From an uncultured Ferrovum sp. (lineage in GTDB: Bacteria > Pseudomonadota > Gammaproteobacteria > Burkholderiales > Ferrovaceae): a DNA stretch of 36,522 bases. Within the stretch, counting starts at the first letter, position 1; the number at the start of each line of letters is the position of its first letter. The notes under the pieces are model-generated. The model did not search any database and was not told the origin of the DNA. It saw nothing but the letters and a program-made list of their open reading frames with translations. Location: the NCBI GenBank assembly GCA_903863375.1, contig CAIPBT010000197.1, positions 1 through 36,522 on the forward strand. The letters run 5' to 3'. This document shows, one piece after another, positions 5,757-27,525 of this stretch. A program made the translations under genes and the position numbers.

Positions 5757-6167
5757 ATGACTGCCCATCCCCTGCCTATCACCGCGCTGTACGTTGCCCT
5801 GGCCGCCCTGATCCTGATGGGACTTGCCGGTCTGGTGATCCGTCAACGAGCCCGTTTCAAGGTGGTGTTCGGCGAGGGCGACGCCAATGCTGCCGCACTG
5901 AAGCGGGCCATCCGGGCGCACGGCAACGCCGTCGAGTTCGTGCCGATTTCGCTCCTGGTGCTGCTTTGCTGCGAAATGGCCGGCATGGCTCCCTGGGCGG
6001 TGCACGCCTGGGGTTGCACCCTGATCGTCGCGCGACTGGCCCATGCCAGTGGTCTTGCGGCCAGCGAGGGCCAAAGCCTCGGGCGCGGTCTGGGTGCAGG
6101 GCTGCAGTTCACGTTCCTGACCGGCCTGCCGCTGTGGTTGCTGGCCCGCATCGCGGGACTGATCTGA
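5757..6167 (+). CDS. MAPEG-family membrane protein
   Basis: A 136-residue integral membrane protein of the MAPEG superfamily (membrane-associated proteins in eicosanoid and glutathione metabolism). The family signature RAHGNAVEFVP lies at residues 53-63. Hydrophobic segments at about 7-28, 62-78, 80-95 and 115-134 fit four membrane spans. Bacterial members often have no known substrate; some have glutathione transferase or peroxidase activity. It starts 32 bp after asnS, possibly in the same transcript, but no strong ribosome-binding site is visible at the ATG. Two GST-family genes elsewhere in the window make glutathione chemistry plausible but do not link this gene to them. Confidence 0.85.
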   Translation: MTAHPLPITALYVALAALILMGLAGLVIRQRARFKVVFGEGDANAAALKRAIRAHGNAVEFVPISLLVLLCCEMAGMAPWAVHAWGCTLIVARLAHASGLAASEGQSLGRGLGAGLQFTFLTGLPLWLLARIAGLI

Positions 6168-8780: not shown

Positions 8781-10085
8781 ATGCTCTACGGTTTTGGCCG
8801 GGAATTTCAGACCGACCTGCCTTATGCACTTTACCAGACGCAGGATGACCTGCTGGAGCCGTTCCGGGCAAGCGCCCGGATCACCAGCCGATTCCTGCGC
8901 CACTTCACCGGCTTTGGCGCCGACGACGGCCTGTTGCGCTTCGGGGCCGGCTGGCTCGAGGTGTTCGGCAACACCCGGCTCACCCATACCCGGCCCCCCT
9001 TCAACCTGGATGCGGTGGAGTGCGATGGCAAGACCGTGGCGGTGATGGAATCTACCGTCCTGCGCACACCGTTTGCCTCGCTGGTGCACTTTGCCAAGCC
9101 CGAAGTGCGCACGCCCCAGCCGCGGGTGCTGGTGGTGGCGCCCATGTCCGGTCACTTTGCCACCCTGCTGCGCAACACCGTGCGTACCCTGCTGGCGGAT
9201 CACGACGTGTTCATCACCGACTGGCATTCGGCGCGCGACATTCCGCTCGAAGCTGGCCCCTTCGGTATGGACCACTACACCCGGCACGTGATCGACTTTC
9301 TGACCGAGATTGGCCCAGGCGGCCACCTCGTGGCGGTCTGCCAACCCTGTGTGGCGGCATTGTCCGCTGTGGCGCGCATGTCGGAAGACCGTGATCCGTG
9401 TACCCCGATCAGCATGACCCTGATGGCGGGCCCGATTGATACCCGGGTGAATCCGACCGGCGTGAATGTCCTCGCCAACTCGAAGCCGCTCGCGTGGTTT
9501 GAGCAGAAGCTGATCAGCCGGGTGCCCGCCCGGCATGCCGGCGCCTTCCGCAAGGTCTATCCGGGATTCATCCAGCTGGCGGCTTTCGTCTCGATGAACC
9601 AGGCCCGCCACGCAGGCGCGCTCAACCGGCAGATCGTGTACCGGATGAAGGACGAGCAGGCGGCTGCCGACCAGATCAGCCATTTCTATGAAGAATACTT
9701 TGCGGCAGCCGACCTGCCCGCCGAGTTCTACCTGGAAACGGTGGACCAGGTGTTTCAGCAACATCGGCTGCCGCGCGGCGAACTGATGTTTGAAGGTCGG
9801 CTGGTCCGTCCCGAAGCCATCGTGCGTACCCTGTTGCTGACCGTGGAAGGGCAGCGCGACGACATTTGCGCGGTTGGCCAGACGGTGGCCGCGCAAGACC
9901 TCTGTACAGGGCTGAAACCCTTCCTGCGACATCACCATGTGCAGCCCGGCGTGGGACATTACGGCGTGTTCAGTGGCCACCGCTGGGAAGAGGAGATTTA
10001 TCCGATCGTGCGCAACTGCATCTTCCAGGCGGAACGCGACATTGGCGCACGGCTGCCTGCGCTTCGGGCCAGCTCGCCGGCCTGA
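8781..10085 (+). CDS. phaZ: Intracellular PHB depolymerase
   Basis: This 434-residue alpha/beta-hydrolase degrades native intracellular poly(3-hydroxybutyrate) granules. It matches the Ralstonia PhaZ1-type family: N terminus MLYGFGREFQTDLPYALYQTQ, a Cys nucleophile in VAVCQPC (C187) in place of a lipase-box serine, an Asp in EGQRDDI near residue 355, and His393 in VGHYGVFSG. There is no signal peptide, consistent with action on cytoplasmic granules. The ATG at 8781 fits the family; a TTG two codons earlier (8775) has slightly better spacing to AGGA and is an alternative. It is divergent from the GST gene with a 126-bp gap. Together with the phasin-like protein and the SDR it indicates that the organism stores PHB. 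Confidence 0.93.
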   Translation: MLYGFGREFQTDLPYALYQTQDDLLEPFRASARITSRFLRHFTGFGADDGLLRFGAGWLEVFGNTRLTHTRPPFNLDAVECDGKTVAVMESTVLRTPFASLVHFAKPEVRTPQPRVLVVAPMSGHFATLLRNTVRTLLADHDVFITDWHSARDIPLEAGPFGMDHYTRHVIDFLTEIGPGGHLVAVCQPCVAALSAVARMSEDRDPCTPISMTLMAGPIDTRVNPTGVNVLANSKPLAWFEQKLISRVPARHAGAFRKVYPGFIQLAAFVSMNQARHAGALNRQIVYRMKDEQAAADQISHFYEEYFAAADLPAEFYLETVDQVFQQHRLPRGELMFEGRLVRPEAIVRTLLLTVEGQRDDICAVGQTVAAQDLCTGLKPFLRHHHVQPGVGHYGVFSGHRWEEEIYPIVRNCIFQAERDIGARLPALRASSPA

Positions 10086-19908: not shown

Positions 19909-20364
19909 TCACAGCCTGCTGCGGTAGTGGACATGCTGGTGACTGCCCGGCGCTGGCACCACGGCCTCGAGCGGCACCAGATTGACCTTGCCAAAGCGCA
20001 CCCCACGTTCCGCCATCAGGGCATCGGCGAACGCCCTGACCTGCTCCAGGCTGCCGCGCAGGATCACCGTTTCCAGGCACTCCTCATGGTCGAGATGCAC
20101 GTGCATCGATGACACGGCCAGGTCGTGATGGGCGTGCTGCAGGGCAGCGAGCCGGCTGGCCAGTTCCCGCTGATGATGGTTATAGACGTAACTCACGGCT
20201 GCGATGCAGTGCTGTGGCCCCCTGCCCTGCAGACGCACCGTCTCCAGACGATCCCGGATCAGGTCGCGCACCGCCTCCGAACGGTTTTGATAGCCCTGGC
20301 GCTGCACGAAATCGTCAAAGGCCTCGGCCAGCGGATCGTCGATGGAAATGGTCAGTCTTTGCAT
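19909..20364 (-). CDS. nikR: Nickel-responsive regulator NikR
   Basis: A 151-residue ribbon-helix-helix repressor that binds DNA when loaded with Ni(II). The N-terminal RHH domain MQRLTISIDDPLAEAFDDFV is followed by the ACT-like metal domain. The nickel ligands known from E. coli (H76, H87, H89, C95) align here with H77, H88, H90 and C96 in QHAHHD and MHVHLDHEEC. The ATG at 20364 gives the exact family N terminus; the longer in-frame extension is unsupported. A GGTGAG element about 8 bp upstream can serve as ribosome-binding site. It is divergent from a TonB-dependent receptor, with a NikR-type operator in the 74-bp gap, so it probably represses the receptor and perhaps itself. Confidence 0.95.
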   Translation of the reverse strand: MQRLTISIDDPLAEAFDDFVQRQGYQNRSEAVRDLIRDRLETVRLQGRGPQHCIAAVSYVYNHHQRELASRLAALQHAHHDLAVSSMHVHLDHEECLETVILRGSLEQVRAFADALMAERGVRFGKVNLVPLEAVVPAPGSHQHVHYRSRL

Positions 20365-20385: not shown

Positions 20386-20415
20386 CTGGCATGATATCGC
20401 CAGCCGACGTATGAT
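20386..20415 (+). promoter_or_regulatory. Candidate promoter of the receptor gene
   Basis: CTGGCA (20386-20391, 4 of 6 matches to TTGACA) and TATGAT (20410-20415, 5 of 6 matches to TATAAT) are separated by 18 bp. The -10 element overlaps the left arm of the NikR operator, as expected for direct repression. Confidence 0.45.
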
Positions 20416-20436
20416 GATTTTCTGAAACTTCATACG
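20408..20436. promoter_or_regulatory. Candidate NikR operator
   Basis: CGTATGA (20408-20414) and TCATACG (20430-20436) are perfect 7-bp inverted arms with 15 bp between them. The E. coli NikR site is GTATGA-N16-TCATAC; the half-sites here are identical and the spacer is one base shorter. It sits between divergent nikR and the receptor gene, overlaps a -10-like TATGAT, and ends three bases before the first ATG of the receptor. Confidence 0.8.
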
Positions 20437-20438
20437 GG

Positions 20439-22754
20439 ATGCCCGCAATGACAGCGCAGCCGAAGCCGCAGCCTACCGCGATCGCCCTGGCATTGGGCCT
20501 TGCGCTGGCCGGCGCAGCCGCCCCAACGGCGTCAGCGGCGTCAGCGGCGTCAGCCGCAGGCGCAGGCGCAGTCGCCACCCCAGCAGTCCCCGGCACGGTA
20601 CCCACCAGCGTGACGGTGCTCGATACCGTCCAGGCCACTGGCCACTATGACAACGCCGTCGGCACCTTCGACGCCGCCTCGCAGGGCACCGTGAACGGCG
20701 TGCTGTTGCAGGACATTCCCCTGCTGCGTCCCGGCGAAGTGCTGGAAACCGTGCCCGGACTGGTGGTGACCCAGCATTCCGGCGACGGCAAGGCCAACCA
20801 GTACTTCCTGCGTGGCTACAACCTCGACCATGGCACCGATCTGGCGAGTTTTCTCGATGGTGTCCCGGTCAACATGCCGACCCACGCCCACGGCCAGGGC
20901 TACTCTGACCTGAATTGCCTGATTCCCGAACTGGTCGACCGCATCAACTACCTCAAAGGGCCCTACTTTGCATCGGCTGGTGATTTCTCGGCGGCTGGCG
21001 CGGTAGACATCCATTATCGGGACAGCCTGCCACGCCCCTTCGCCGATCTCACCATCGGTCAGGAAGGCTATCGGCGCCTGCTGCTGGCCGGATCAGCGCC
21101 CGTCGGGCGTTTCCTGGCCGGGGTCACCGGCGCACCCGGCAAGTCCCTGGTCACTCCCGGCACTGCCGGGGCCGTTGAAGCCCCCGCCCCGACCGGAACG
21201 GATGCCGGCCCGGTCCTGCTGGCAGCGCTTGAGGTGCTGGCCCAGGATGGTCCCTGGGTAAATCCGGAGGGTCTGCACAAGACCAATGGCCTGCTGCGCT
21301 TGAGCGACGGATCGGCGCTGCGGGGCTGGTCGGCGGATGTCCAGCTGTATGACGCGCAATGGAACTCGACCGACCAGGTACCGCTGTCCCTGATCACGTC
21401 GGGTGCCTTGCCCCGCTTTGGCGCTGTTGATCCCAGCGATGGCGGCCGCAGCGGGCGCGCCATCCTGTCTGGGGAATGGCATCGGCAGGATGCCGACGGC
21501 TATCAGCGGGTCAGCGCCTTCGTCGAACACTCGCGCCTGCAGCTGTTTTCCAATTTCACCCTGTTCGAAAACCGCGAATCCCTGTCGCCCGTTGCCGGCA
21601 ATCCGCCGGTCTTTGCCCCGGATCCCCTGCGGCCCACCGACCAGTTCGAACAGTTCGAGCAACGCAACACGCTGGGCACCGGCGTCCTGCAGGGATGGAA
21701 CCACCACCTGCTCGGTCACGACAGCACGACCGAGGTCGGTCTGCAGGGACGCTATGACTTCGTGCACGTCGGCCTGCTCGATACCCAGTCGCGCATTCCG
21801 TTTCATACCGTGGGTGACGATCAGGAGCAGGTCAGTTCGCTGGGTGTCTATGTGCAGAACACCACCACCTGGACGCCCTGGCTGCGCTCCTTGCTTGGCC
21901 TGCGCGAACAGCGCGTCAGCCTGGCGCAGACCGACGCGCTGTATGCCCAGAACACGGCTGGGGCGAACGGCAATCTGTTGCTGCCCAAGCTGGCGCTGAT
22001 CCTTGGTCCGTGGGACCGCACCGAGTTTTTCCTGAATGCCGGTCAAGGCGTGCACAGCAATGATGCCCGCGGCGTGATCAACCAGATCGACCCGACCACG
22101 GGTGCGGCGGCGACAGGGGCAACCACCCTGGTGCGCGCCACCGGCTATGAGGTGGGAGCACGCACGGAAGCCATCGACGGCCTGCAGACTTCCTTCGCGC
22201 TATGGGCCCTGAACAGCGATTCCGAGCTGGTCTACAACGCCGACTCGGACATCGGCAGCACCAGCGCGAATGGCGCCAGCCGGCGCTACGGCATCGAGTG
22301 GAACAACCATCTCCAGGTGGGCCGTCAGCTGCTGGTCGATGCCGATGTGGCATGGACGCACGCGCGCTACGCGGCGCCGAACGCCAACGGTGCCCCGGGC
22401 GACCAGATTCCGAATGCCGTGCCAGTGGTGGCGCTGATCCGGGCTACCCTGCGCGATCTTGGCCCCTGGACCCTGTCGCTGGAAGAACGCTATTTGGGCG
22501 CCTACCCGGCCTCGCAGGATGGCAGCATCCAGGCACCATCGTCGCTGGTCACCAATCTGCGCCTGCAGCGAGTGCTGACACCAGACATCAAGGTCAGTCT
22601 CGACCTGCTGAACGTATTCAACACGTCCTACTACGACATCGTCTATCAGCAGGATTATCGCGTCTCGCCGACGGCGCAGGCCGTTGCCACCGGTACCAGC
22701 GTCCATCCCGGCGAGCCACGCGAAGTGCGCGTCAACCTGCAGCTGGCCTTCTGA
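20439..22754 (+). CDS. TonB-dependent receptor, probable nickel uptake
   Basis: A 771-residue outer-membrane receptor. The N terminus has a signal peptide (hydrophobic ALALGLALAGAAAPTASA), then a plug domain with LLRPGEVLETVPGLVVTQHSGDGKANQYFLRGYNLDHGTD-type sequence, and a barrel ending in VNLQLAF with a terminal Phe. The N-terminal VPTSVTVLDTVQAT may contain the TonB box. The divergent nikR gene and the shared operator predict nickel repression, so the cargo is probably a nickel chelate; this is inference from context. ATG at 20439 or at 20448 is possible, the second having GGGA upstream. Barrel residues about 228-253 (VTGAPGKSLVTPGTAGAVEAP) look like a low-complexity insertion. The 3' end overlaps the convergent LacI gene by 23 bp. 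Confidence 0.9.
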   Translation: MPAMTAQPKPQPTAIALALGLALAGAAAPTASAASAASAAGAGAVATPAVPGTVPTSVTVLDTVQATGHYDNAVGTFDAASQGTVNGVLLQDIPLLRPGEVLETVPGLVVTQHSGDGKANQYFLRGYNLDHGTDLASFLDGVPVNMPTHAHGQGYSDLNCLIPELVDRINYLKGPYFASAGDFSAAGAVDIHYRDSLPRPFADLTIGQEGYRRLLLAGSAPVGRFLAGVTGAPGKSLVTPGTAGAVEAPAPTGTDAGPVLLAALEVLAQDGPWVNPEGLHKTNGLLRLSDGSALRGWSADVQLYDAQWNSTDQVPLSLITSGALPRFGAVDPSDGGRSGRAILSGEWHRQDADGYQRVSAFVEHSRLQLFSNFTLFENRESLSPVAGNPPVFAPDPLRPTDQFEQFEQRNTLGTGVLQGWNHHLLGHDSTTEVGLQGRYDFVHVGLLDTQSRIPFHTVGDDQEQVSSLGVYVQNTTTWTPWLRSLLGLREQRVSLAQTDALYAQNTAGANGNLLLPKLALILGPWDRTEFFLNAGQGVHSNDARGVINQIDPTTGAAATGATTLVRATGYEVGARTEAIDGLQTSFALWALNSDSELVYNADSDIGSTSANGASRRYGIEWNNHLQVGRQLLVDADVAWTHARYAAPNANGAPGDQIPNAVPVVALIRATLRDLGPWTLSLEERYLGAYPASQDGSIQAPSSLVTNLRLQRVLTPDIKVSLDLLNVFNTSYYDIVYQQDYRVSPTAQAVATGTSVHPGEPREVRVNLQLAF
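20528..20554 (+). repeat. 9-bp tandem repeat in the receptor N terminus
   Basis: GGCGTCAGC is repeated three times exactly, encoding the Ala/Ser-rich stretch around the signal-peptide cleavage region of the receptor. Copy changes would stay in frame. Confidence 0.8.
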
Positions 22755-24030: not shown

Positions 24031-27000
24031 ATGTCCCTTGCCAGCCCGCCGTCCTCACGTCCCCTGCACCCGACTGCGGAGCACCTCTGCCTGCACGGCC
24101 GGAACAGCAGCGTGATTCTTGAACTGGTGCCCGGCGAAGCGCCGCTCTGGCGCTACTGGGGTGCGCGCCTGCCGGCGGATGCCCGGCCCGACTGTCGTCT
24201 GCGCGGCACCCGTCCCCTGCCTAGCTTCAGCCTGGAGTTTGACCAGCCCCTCACCGTACTGCCAACCTTTGGCGTGGGTTGGTTCCATCACAGCGCCCTG
24301 CTGGCGCACCGGGCAGGACAGGCGTTTGCCCAGGCCTTTCAGGATTGCGTCGTGCAATGGCTGGTGCCCGACGAAGCGGTCAGCCTGACCCTGACCGATG
24401 CCGTTGCCGAACTGGAAACCTGCCTGACCCTGCGGCTGGATCCGACCAGCGACGTGCTGTCCATCCACACCACCCTGCGCAATCTGGGCAGCCAGCCGCT
24501 CGAGGTGCAATGGCTGGCGGCAGCCACCCTGCCCCTGCCAGACCACTGCGACACGGTACGCTCCTACGCCGGCCAGCACATGCACGAATTCCTGCTGCAG
24601 ACCGATACGCTGAGCCGCACCCAGTGGCGCCGCGAGAGCCGACGGGGCCGCACCTCGCACGACTGCTTTCCGGGCGCGGTGGTGACCACGCCCGGCAGCA
24701 CCGCCGCTGCCGGGCTGGTCTACGGTGCCCATCTCGCCTGGTCTGGCAATCATCAGCAGACCATCGAATGGCTGCCCGATGGCCGCTACCAATGGCAACT
24801 GGGCGAATGGCTGGCGCCCGGCGAGGGACTGTTGGCGCCCGGCGCCTGCCTGCGCACGCCAGAGGTAGTGGCCACCTTGTCCACCGCCGGACTGGATGGC
24901 CTGGCCGCCAATTTCCATGCCGAACTGCGTCGGCGGGTGCCCTGGCCCGGTGGCCAGATGGCGCCTCGGCCGGTCCATCTCAATACGTGGGAGGGCTTCT
25001 ATTTCGATGTCCACCCCAAGCCGGTGATGGCGCTGGCCACCGCCGCAGCCAGGCTTGGCGTGGAACGGTTTGTGCTCGATGACGGGTGGTTTCATGGTCG
25101 TCACCACGACCGCGCGGCGCTGGGCGACTGGTGGCCGGACGAGACCAAGTTTCCGCATGGCCTCGCCCCCCTGATTGCCCATGTCAACGATCTGGGCATG
25201 TCCTTCGGGCTCTGGGTGGAACCGGAAATGGTCAACCCCGACAGCGACCTCTATCGTGCGCATCCTGAGTGGGCGCTGGCGCTGGCGGGACGCCCGGTGC
25301 TGACTGCTCGCAACCAGCTGGTGCTGGACCTGTCGCGCCGGGAGGTTGCCGACTACCTGTTCGGCAAGCTGTCGGCACTGCTGACAGCCCATCCCATCAC
25401 CTACCTGAAATGGGATCACAACCGTGACCTGACCACGGCGGGGCTGGCCAACGGTCTGCCCGGCTATCGCGCTCAGGTACACGCCGTCTATGTCCTGCTC
25501 GACCGGCTGCGCACGGCCCACCCGGACGTGGAGATCGAAAGCTGCTCTGGCGGCGGTGGGCGGATCGATTTCGGCATCCTGCGCCACACCCATCGCACCT
25601 GGGCCAGTGATTGCATCGATGCGCTGTCGCGCCTGCAGACCCAGGCCGGGTTCCTGCAATTCTTTCCGCCCGAGATCCTGGGAGCGCACGTCGGCACTGC
25701 ACCAGCGCATACCACCGGACGATCGCAAGGCATGTCCTTCCGCTGTGCGGTCGCGCTCCCGGGGCATTTCGGCGTGGAACTCGACGCCCGCCACCTCGCT
25801 ACCGACGAGACGGCCGCCCTGCAGGCCTGGATCGCCACCTACAAGCTGCTGCGCGACCGCCTGCACCGCGGCCACGTCTGGCACGGCGACGCCGGGGACG
25901 GCATCGTCTGGCAGATGCATGGCGACGCGAGCGGGCAACGATGGGTCTTGCTCGCGTACCGGATTGCGCCCAGCACCTTCCGCTACGCGCCGGCGATCCG
26001 CCTGCCCATGCTGCAGCCCGACGCCCAGTATCGGGTGCGCGAATGCCTGCCACTGGGCAGCAGCACCTGGACCGGTCGCCAGAGCAGCGCTGCCTTCTTC
26101 GAGCAACTGGCGACACCAGACGGCCAGCGCATCGCCGGGGCCTGGCTGATGCATGCCGGCTTGCCGACGCCCCGATGTCATGCCGAGACCGCGTTCATCG
26201 TCGAGATCGACCGGCTGGATGCCGAAGCGCCAACCACCCTCGTCGCGCCGGGCACGACCGGAGCGTCTGGCGCAACTGGTGCAACCGGCGCAACTGGTGC
26301 AAGGGCCAGCGCCGCAGCCACTGCCACTGCCACTGCCACTAACGTTCCACTGGTGCACCGGCGGCGCAACCTGCTCAATGGCGATTGGGTGCTGGTCTCG
26401 CCACACCGCAACCTGCGGCCCTGGCAGGGGCAGCAGGAAGTCCAGGAGTCCCCGACGGCCGTGCATCACGATCCGGCCTGCTATCTGTGCGCCGGCAACA
26501 CGCGTATCACGGGCGAGGTCAACCCGGCCTATGCCGGCCCCTATGCCTTCACCAACGATTTCCCGGCACTCTTGCCGGCATCGAACGCTGACGATGACCG
26601 GACAGCCGCGCCGCCAGCGGCGGACGATTTCGCGGCAGCACAGGCACCGGCAGGCGAGTTACCGGCGGCCACGCTGACCCCGGGCGATGACCGGAAGGCC
26701 GCTGCCGACCTGTTCGTGGCCGAGCCGGTACATGGCACTGCCCGGGTGGTCTGCTTCTCGCCCGACCATGCCGCCACGCTAGGTACCCTGCCGGTCGATG
26801 CGATTGCCGCCGTGGTCCGTACCTGGATGGCCGAATCGGCTGCCCTCGGGGCGACCTACCGCTGGGTACAGGTCTTTGAAAACAAGGGGGCCATGATGGG
26901 CTGCTCGAATCCCCATCCCCACAGCCAGATCTGGGCGCAAGACACCCTGCCCCGGGAGGCCGAGCGGGAGGATGCGGCGCAGCGGGCCTGGCTCACAACC

Positions 27001-27525
27001 CACCACCGCCCTCTGCTGCTGCAGGTCGCCGAGGCCGAAATCGACGCCGGCGCCCGGGTGGTCTGCTGCAACGATGACTGGCTGGTGATCGTGCCCTGGT
27101 GGGCCGCCTGGCCCTTCGAGACGCTGCTGCTGCCACGCTTCGCGGTGCAACGGCTGCAGGACCTCGCGCTCTCGGCGGTGCTCAGCCTGGCCACCATCCT
27201 GGCCGATCTGGCGCGCCGCTATGACCAGCTGTTTGCCTGCAGCTTTCCCTACACCATGGGTTGGCACGGCGCACCGAACGGATCCGCGACCACGGAGCAG
27301 CACTGGCAACTGCATGCCCATTTCCTGCCCCCCTTGCTGCGGTCGGCCACCGTGCGCAAATTCATGGTGGGCTACGAGCTCCTGGCCGAAGCCCAGCGCG
27401 ACCTGACGCCAGAGGATGCCGCGCAACGCCTGCGCGCCCTGCCCGGTCTCGGTGATCCTGGTGGTGCTGCTGACACGGGTGCCCCTGCCCATGTCGGCCG
27501 CAACACCGGAGGGACCGCGCCATGA
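24031..27525 (+). CDS. GH36 alpha-galactosidase fused to GalT
   Basis: A 1164-residue, apparently natural two-enzyme fusion. Residues 1 to about 730 form a complete GH36 alpha-galactosidase (raffinose/melibiose type): DDGWFHGRHHDRAALGDWW, the nucleophile D462 in KWDHNR, ESCSGGGGRIDFG, and the acid/base D527 in WASDCID. A Gly/Ala/Thr linker spans about 731-770. Residues 771 to about 1140 form a complete galactose-1-phosphate uridylyltransferase: zinc cysteines C817 and C820 in CYLCAGN, and HPH at 962-964 with the uridylylated His964. The GalT part carries an extra acidic Ala/Pro-rich insert near 850-885. No signal peptide is seen, so it acts in the cytoplasm. No ribosome-binding site or ATG exists at the junction for separate GalT translation. 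It overlaps galK by ATGA. Confidence 0.93.
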   Translation: MSLASPPSSRPLHPTAEHLCLHGRNSSVILELVPGEAPLWRYWGARLPADARPDCRLRGTRPLPSFSLEFDQPLTVLPTFGVGWFHHSALLAHRAGQAFAQAFQDCVVQWLVPDEAVSLTLTDAVAELETCLTLRLDPTSDVLSIHTTLRNLGSQPLEVQWLAAATLPLPDHCDTVRSYAGQHMHEFLLQTDTLSRTQWRRESRRGRTSHDCFPGAVVTTPGSTAAAGLVYGAHLAWSGNHQQTIEWLPDGRYQWQLGEWLAPGEGLLAPGACLRTPEVVATLSTAGLDGLAANFHAELRRRVPWPGGQMAPRPVHLNTWEGFYFDVHPKPVMALATAAARLGVERFVLDDGWFHGRHHDRAALGDWWPDETKFPHGLAPLIAHVNDLGMSFGLWVEPEMVNPDSDLYRAHPEWALALAGRPVLTARNQLVLDLSRREVADYLFGKLSALLTAHPITYLKWDHNRDLTTAGLANGLPGYRAQVHAVYVLLDRLRTAHPDVEIESCSGGGGRIDFGILRHTHRTWASDCIDALSRLQTQAGFLQFFPPEILGAHVGTAPAHTTGRSQGMSFRCAVALPGHFGVELDARHLATDETAALQAWIATYKLLRDRLHRGHVWHGDAGDGIVWQMHGDASGQRWVLLAYRIAPSTFRYAPAIRLPMLQPDAQYRVRECLPLGSSTWTGRQSSAAFFEQLATPDGQRIAGAWLMHAGLPTPRCHAETAFIVEIDRLDAEAPTTLVAPGTTGASGATGATGATGARASAAATATATATNVPLVHRRRNLLNGDWVLVSPHRNLRPWQGQQEVQESPTAVHHDPACYLCAGNTRITGEVNPAYAGPYAFTNDFPALLPASNADDDRTAAPPAADDFAAAQAPAGELPAATLTPGDDRKAAADLFVAEPVHGTARVVCFSPDHAATLGTLPVDAIAAVVRTWMAESAALGATYRWVQVFENKGAMMGCSNPHPHSQIWAQDTLPREAEREDAAQRAWLTTHHRPLLLQVAEAEIDAGARVVCCNDDWLVIVPWWAAWPFETLLLPRFAVQRLQDLALSAVLSLATILADLARRYDQLFACSFPYTMGWHGAPNGSATTEQHWQLHAHFLPPLLRSATVRKFMVGYELLAEAQRDLTPEDAAQRLRALPGLGDPGGAADTGAPAHVGRNTGGTAP
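26269..26340 (+). repeat. In-frame repeats encoding the fusion linker
   Basis: A 16-bp sequence (GGCGCAACTGGTGCAA) occurs at 26269 and 26287 with an 18-bp period, giving Gly-Ala-Thr triplets. GCCACT is then repeated four times at 26317-26340, giving alternating Ala-Thr. Together they encode the linker between alpha-galactosidase and GalT. Confidence 0.9.

Follow-up and report, generated by a model that had tools for sequence, protein, structure and literature searches.

The window analysed here, a stretch of 36,522 nucleotides from an uncultured Ferrovum species, carries a nikR gene (19909–20364, minus strand; 151 aa) and a divergently transcribed gene for a TonB-dependent receptor (20439–22754, plus strand, with its start at 20439 or 20448; up to 771 aa). 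Between them lies a predicted NikR operator of the form CGTATGA-N15-TCATACG at 20408–20436, a palindrome to which no strand is assigned, with the letters CGTATGA TGATTTTCTGAAACT TCATACG. The left half-site, CGTATGA (20408–20414, plus strand), and the right half-site (20430–20436, minus strand; TCATACG on the plus strand) form a 7-bp perfect inverse pair, and 15 bp separate GTATGA from TCATAC. The site thus has the inverted half-sites of the E. coli-type NikR operator without a mismatch, and its spacer falls within the 15- or 16-bp form of that operator though outside the stricter 16-bp form. On the minus strand, nikR begins with an ATG at 20364, and 43 bp separate this codon from the site. Further along the plus strand of the window, a frame of 1164 aa (24031–27525) joins a GH36 alpha-galactosidase through a low-complexity linker to a galactose-1-phosphate uridylyltransferase; in a genome of the same genus (G001) the alpha-galactosidase part is present and the second part is absent at that place, so that the fusion may be recent or a matter of assembly.

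The naming of the adjoining gene as nikR in the initial annotation, which was made from the letters alone, holds up on several counts. Both the RHH_1 (PF01402) and NikR_C (PF08753) domains of its product score above their cutoffs, the equivalog model NF002815 gives 201 bits against a cutoff of 83, and the best match among solved structures is E. coli NikR (1q5v, 5.9e-39); the score against TIGR02793, 165.9, is below the cutoff of that model (175.45). E. coli NikR holds nickel through H76, H87, H89 and C95, and the residues of the window's protein that correspond to these, H77, H88, H90 and C96, are invariant across 13 aligned NikRs including that of E. coli.

The perfection of the arms and their match to the E. 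coli half-sites, likewise claimed at the outset, are confirmed by the sequence. A perfect GTATGA-N(10–20)-TCATAC pair occurs once in the window, where 100 shuffles give an expectation of 0, and once in the entire 3.25-Mb genome, in both cases as the site at 20408–20436; this is also the sole match in the genome when one mismatch in the 12 positions is allowed at spacer 15. Allowing two mismatches at that spacer yields 15 more matches, each with two mismatches, against 10 for a reversed-pattern control; these being near the control level, no second candidate site stands out, and we rejected further NikR targets in this genome. Likewise, no near-perfect NikR site was found in the recovered part of the genome's urease operon. 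By a weight matrix built from 53 non-redundant spacer-15 sites, with the window's own site left out, the palindrome scores 30.5 bits and the next best place in the window about -7 bits. That the genome has a single such site is what might be expected of a chance match or of a site for some other regulator. However, only about 0.02 sites are expected genome-wide by a rough composition estimate, the site adjoins nikR itself, its spacing is kept in relatives and it is missing where nikR is missing, all of which renders such an origin exceedingly improbable.

The last of these points comes from a comparison of receptor loci across relatives. A box of at least 12 bits lies upstream of a receptor of the same family at 49 of 68 loci with nikR and at none of 20 loci from same-order genomes in which no NikR was found. 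As many of the 68 loci supplied training sites for the matrix, the first fraction is not independent, and it is the contrast with the second that is informative; some nikR-linked receptors have no box recognisable by this matrix. At 21 loci the box stands also, or instead, before a NiCoT nickel-permease gene (PF03824, NicO) on the strand of the receptor, which then follows, and a NiCoT–receptor operon headed by the box is present in many relatives. In the sister species the arrangement of the window is kept, with one mismatch in the site. The recurrence of the box with nikR and its absence without it support the predicted assignment of a NikR operator before the receptor, and the clade-wide matrix is usable for finding nickel genes in related genomes. 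The same distribution bears on which gene is controlled. The divergent layout, with the site 43 bp ahead of the nikR ATG, would suit a box that governs nikR by autoregulation and not the receptor. Against this, the box goes with the receptor or the NiCoT–receptor operon even where these are not divergent from nikR, and in the window it covers the promoter-like element of the receptor; we therefore consider control of nikR alone to be very unlikely, while both genes may be controlled by the box.

The promoter-like element is a weak sigma-70-like match, CTGGCA-N18-TATGAT (20386–20415, plus strand), which agrees with the consensus at 9 of 12 positions in a scan that is not evidence of function. 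Its -10-like TATGAT (20410–20415) overlaps the left half-site, bearing out the overlap with a -10-like element noted earlier, and the weak -35-like CTGGCA is 18 bp off. The receptor frame has its first ATG at 20439, 2 nt past the site; were that the start codon, the site would indeed nearly touch the receptor gene as had been proposed. To judge from the GGGA that precedes it, though, a second in-frame ATG at 20448, 11 nt past the site, is at least as likely to be the start.

The receptor displays the plug (PF07715) and beta-barrel (PF00593) domains of TonB-dependent receptors. Its predicted structure (mean pLDDT 81.7) matches the folds of PqqU, FecA, FoxA and the copper receptor OprC, a fold that, taken by itself, is no guide to the substrate. 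Six histidines (H113, H131, H149, H151, H539 and H756) are almost invariant among 85 members of the family. Members of the family recur in genomic company with NikR, with permeases of the NiCoT type and with genes for hydrogenase or urea functions: the homologue in Paraburkholderia acidisoli is beside nikR and a NiCoT permease, that on pHG1 of Cupriavidus necator is near hoxN, and on pHCG3 of Afipia nikR and a homologue follow the hyp operon. The window's receptor thus has both the NikR box and the nickel-gene context of a nickel TonB-dependent receptor. Its own genome encodes urease, a nickel enzyme, in an apparent operon with urea-transport genes; a search of this genome for a NiFe hydrogenase found none. 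On the strand opposite the urease alpha-subunit gene of that operon we observed a match to the 5' ureB small RNA of Rfam (9194–9479 of locus L303, contig C64), which scores 130.6 bits where the gathering score is 40.

This context supports the initial proposal of a probable nickel outer-membrane transporter, with the proviso that cobalt is a candidate substrate beside nickel, as is a chelate of one or the other. One homologue, from a genome that lacks NikR, lies behind a cobalamin riboswitch (5932–6161 of locus L337, the same site being 591–820 of L053), which points to cobalt as a possible substrate in the family and to what looks like an exchange of nickel for cobalt as the controlling signal among its members; published predictions likewise differ among members, with nickel proposed for Daro_3944 and cobalt for Daro_1684 (PMC3400609, PMC7142613, PMC11247825). 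The riboswitch suggests cobalt transport by some members of the family, and both observations would fit a real NikR operator placed before a receptor for cobalt or another metal chelate, with NikR acting on a broader metal uptake. In the present case, however, the NikR box, the NiCoT partners and the urease and hydrogenase neighbourhoods point to nickel, and we regard a different substrate as unlikely. RNA control of the window's own receptor was considered and rejected, as no Rfam match was found anywhere in the window. Near another homologue, on the opposite strand, there is a guanidine-I riboswitch (408–508 of locus L062); any connection with the nickel-dependent use of guanidine would be guesswork.

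Taken together, we propose, with a probability of roughly 0.9, that 20408–20436 is the operator through which nickel-loaded NikR represses the divergent receptor, and that the receptor imports nickel for urease. Briefly, when nickel is plentiful, a NikR tetramer would set one ribbon-helix-helix dimer on each half-site, the centres of which, with a spacer of 15, would be 21 bp apart or about two helical turns. By analogy with E. coli NikR, the bound protein would cover the -10 element and the putative start region, thereby blocking the receptor promoter. When nickel is scarce, the receptor would be produced and would bring in nickel, probably as a chelate, by TonB-powered import for use by urease. 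The site, which very probably binds NikR, is best seen as a well-supported but unremarkable case of a nickel receptor under NikR control. Its value lies in a confident regulatory and functional assignment for an otherwise generic TonB-dependent receptor of an uncharacterised bacterium with urease.

The one detail that had been singled out as surprising is the spacer of 15 rather than 16 bp. We scanned 160 nikR-linked loci, drawn from the window, its same-order relatives and named genomes (mostly betaproteobacterial), for half-site pairs with at least 11 of 12 matches at spacers of 6 to 26. The comparison across related genomes that the initial annotation had proposed reveals no departure: spacer 15 occurs in 71 cases, 16 in six and any other in at most two each, and after near-duplicates are collapsed the figures for 15 and 16 are 31 and six, with an everted-repeat control remaining flat. 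By the same scan, the E. coli nikA site (locus L323) has a spacer of 16, as does the nikR–receptor region of the alphaproteobacterium Afipia, with one mismatch. Hence the count of 15 and the difference from E. coli stand, and the supposed oddity is the local norm. A few loci inside this mostly-15 clade (L187, L188, L213, L222 and L244, including Methyloversatilis) have a 16-bp spacer. One may then ask whether betaproteobacterial-type NikRs as a group read operators 1 bp shorter than those of E. coli and the alphaproteobacteria, a generalization that we advance tentatively, holding it at somewhat under even odds. By our own count, the linker between the two NikR domains is 20 residues in most proteins examined; spacer-15 sites also accompany linkers of 19 and 22, and spacer-16 sites accompany linkers of 18, 19, 20 and 21. 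The idea that the linker sets the spacer was accordingly dropped, there being a weak tendency at best, and one confounded by kinship. If the generalization is true, it would represent a lineage-wide shift of geometry in a metal-dependent tetrameric repressor for which linker length alone is no explanation. The clade-specific spacing itself offers a clean natural experiment on the tolerance of NikR for a 1-bp change, though it does not alter existing knowledge of the NikR system.

Against the backdrop of known systems, the receptor beside nikR on Afipia pHCG3, presumably the product of pHCG3_081, is a homologue of the window's in the same divergent arrangement, and differs in the spacer of its operator (16 as against 15). 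Rodionov et al. (2006) are said to have been the first to predict nickel receptors of this kind. The nikABCDE operator of E. coli, GTATGA-N16-TCATAC (PMC7055735), shares its half-sites and regulator family with the window's site, whereas its spacer is longer by 1 bp and it controls an ABC importer instead of an outer-membrane receptor. The enterobacterial consensus GTATGAT-[N13/14]-ATCATAC (PMC545781) is equal to GTATGA-N15/16-TCATAC, and the 15-bp form is therefore already within published bounds; that consensus was stated for enterobacteria, while the present clade has 15 almost exclusively. In Helicobacter pylori, FrpB4 and FecA3 are experimentally tested, NikR-repressed outer-membrane nickel receptors (cited in PMC11247825 and PMC7142613) and in this respect resemble the case predicted for the window. 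The H. pylori NikR consensus, TRTTA and TAWTA 15 nt apart, for which a two-turn separation has been described too (PMC5385501), differs from the window's half-sites, and FrpB4 groups with heme receptors (PMC3400609). Finally, Daro_3944, Bll6948 and pHCG3_081 have been predicted as nickel or nickel/cobalt receptors (PMC3400609, PMC7142613, PMC11247825). Identity across the members of this predicted nickel/cobalt receptor family is roughly 40%, and, with its relatives already present in the published prediction tables, the window's receptor joins an already predicted group.
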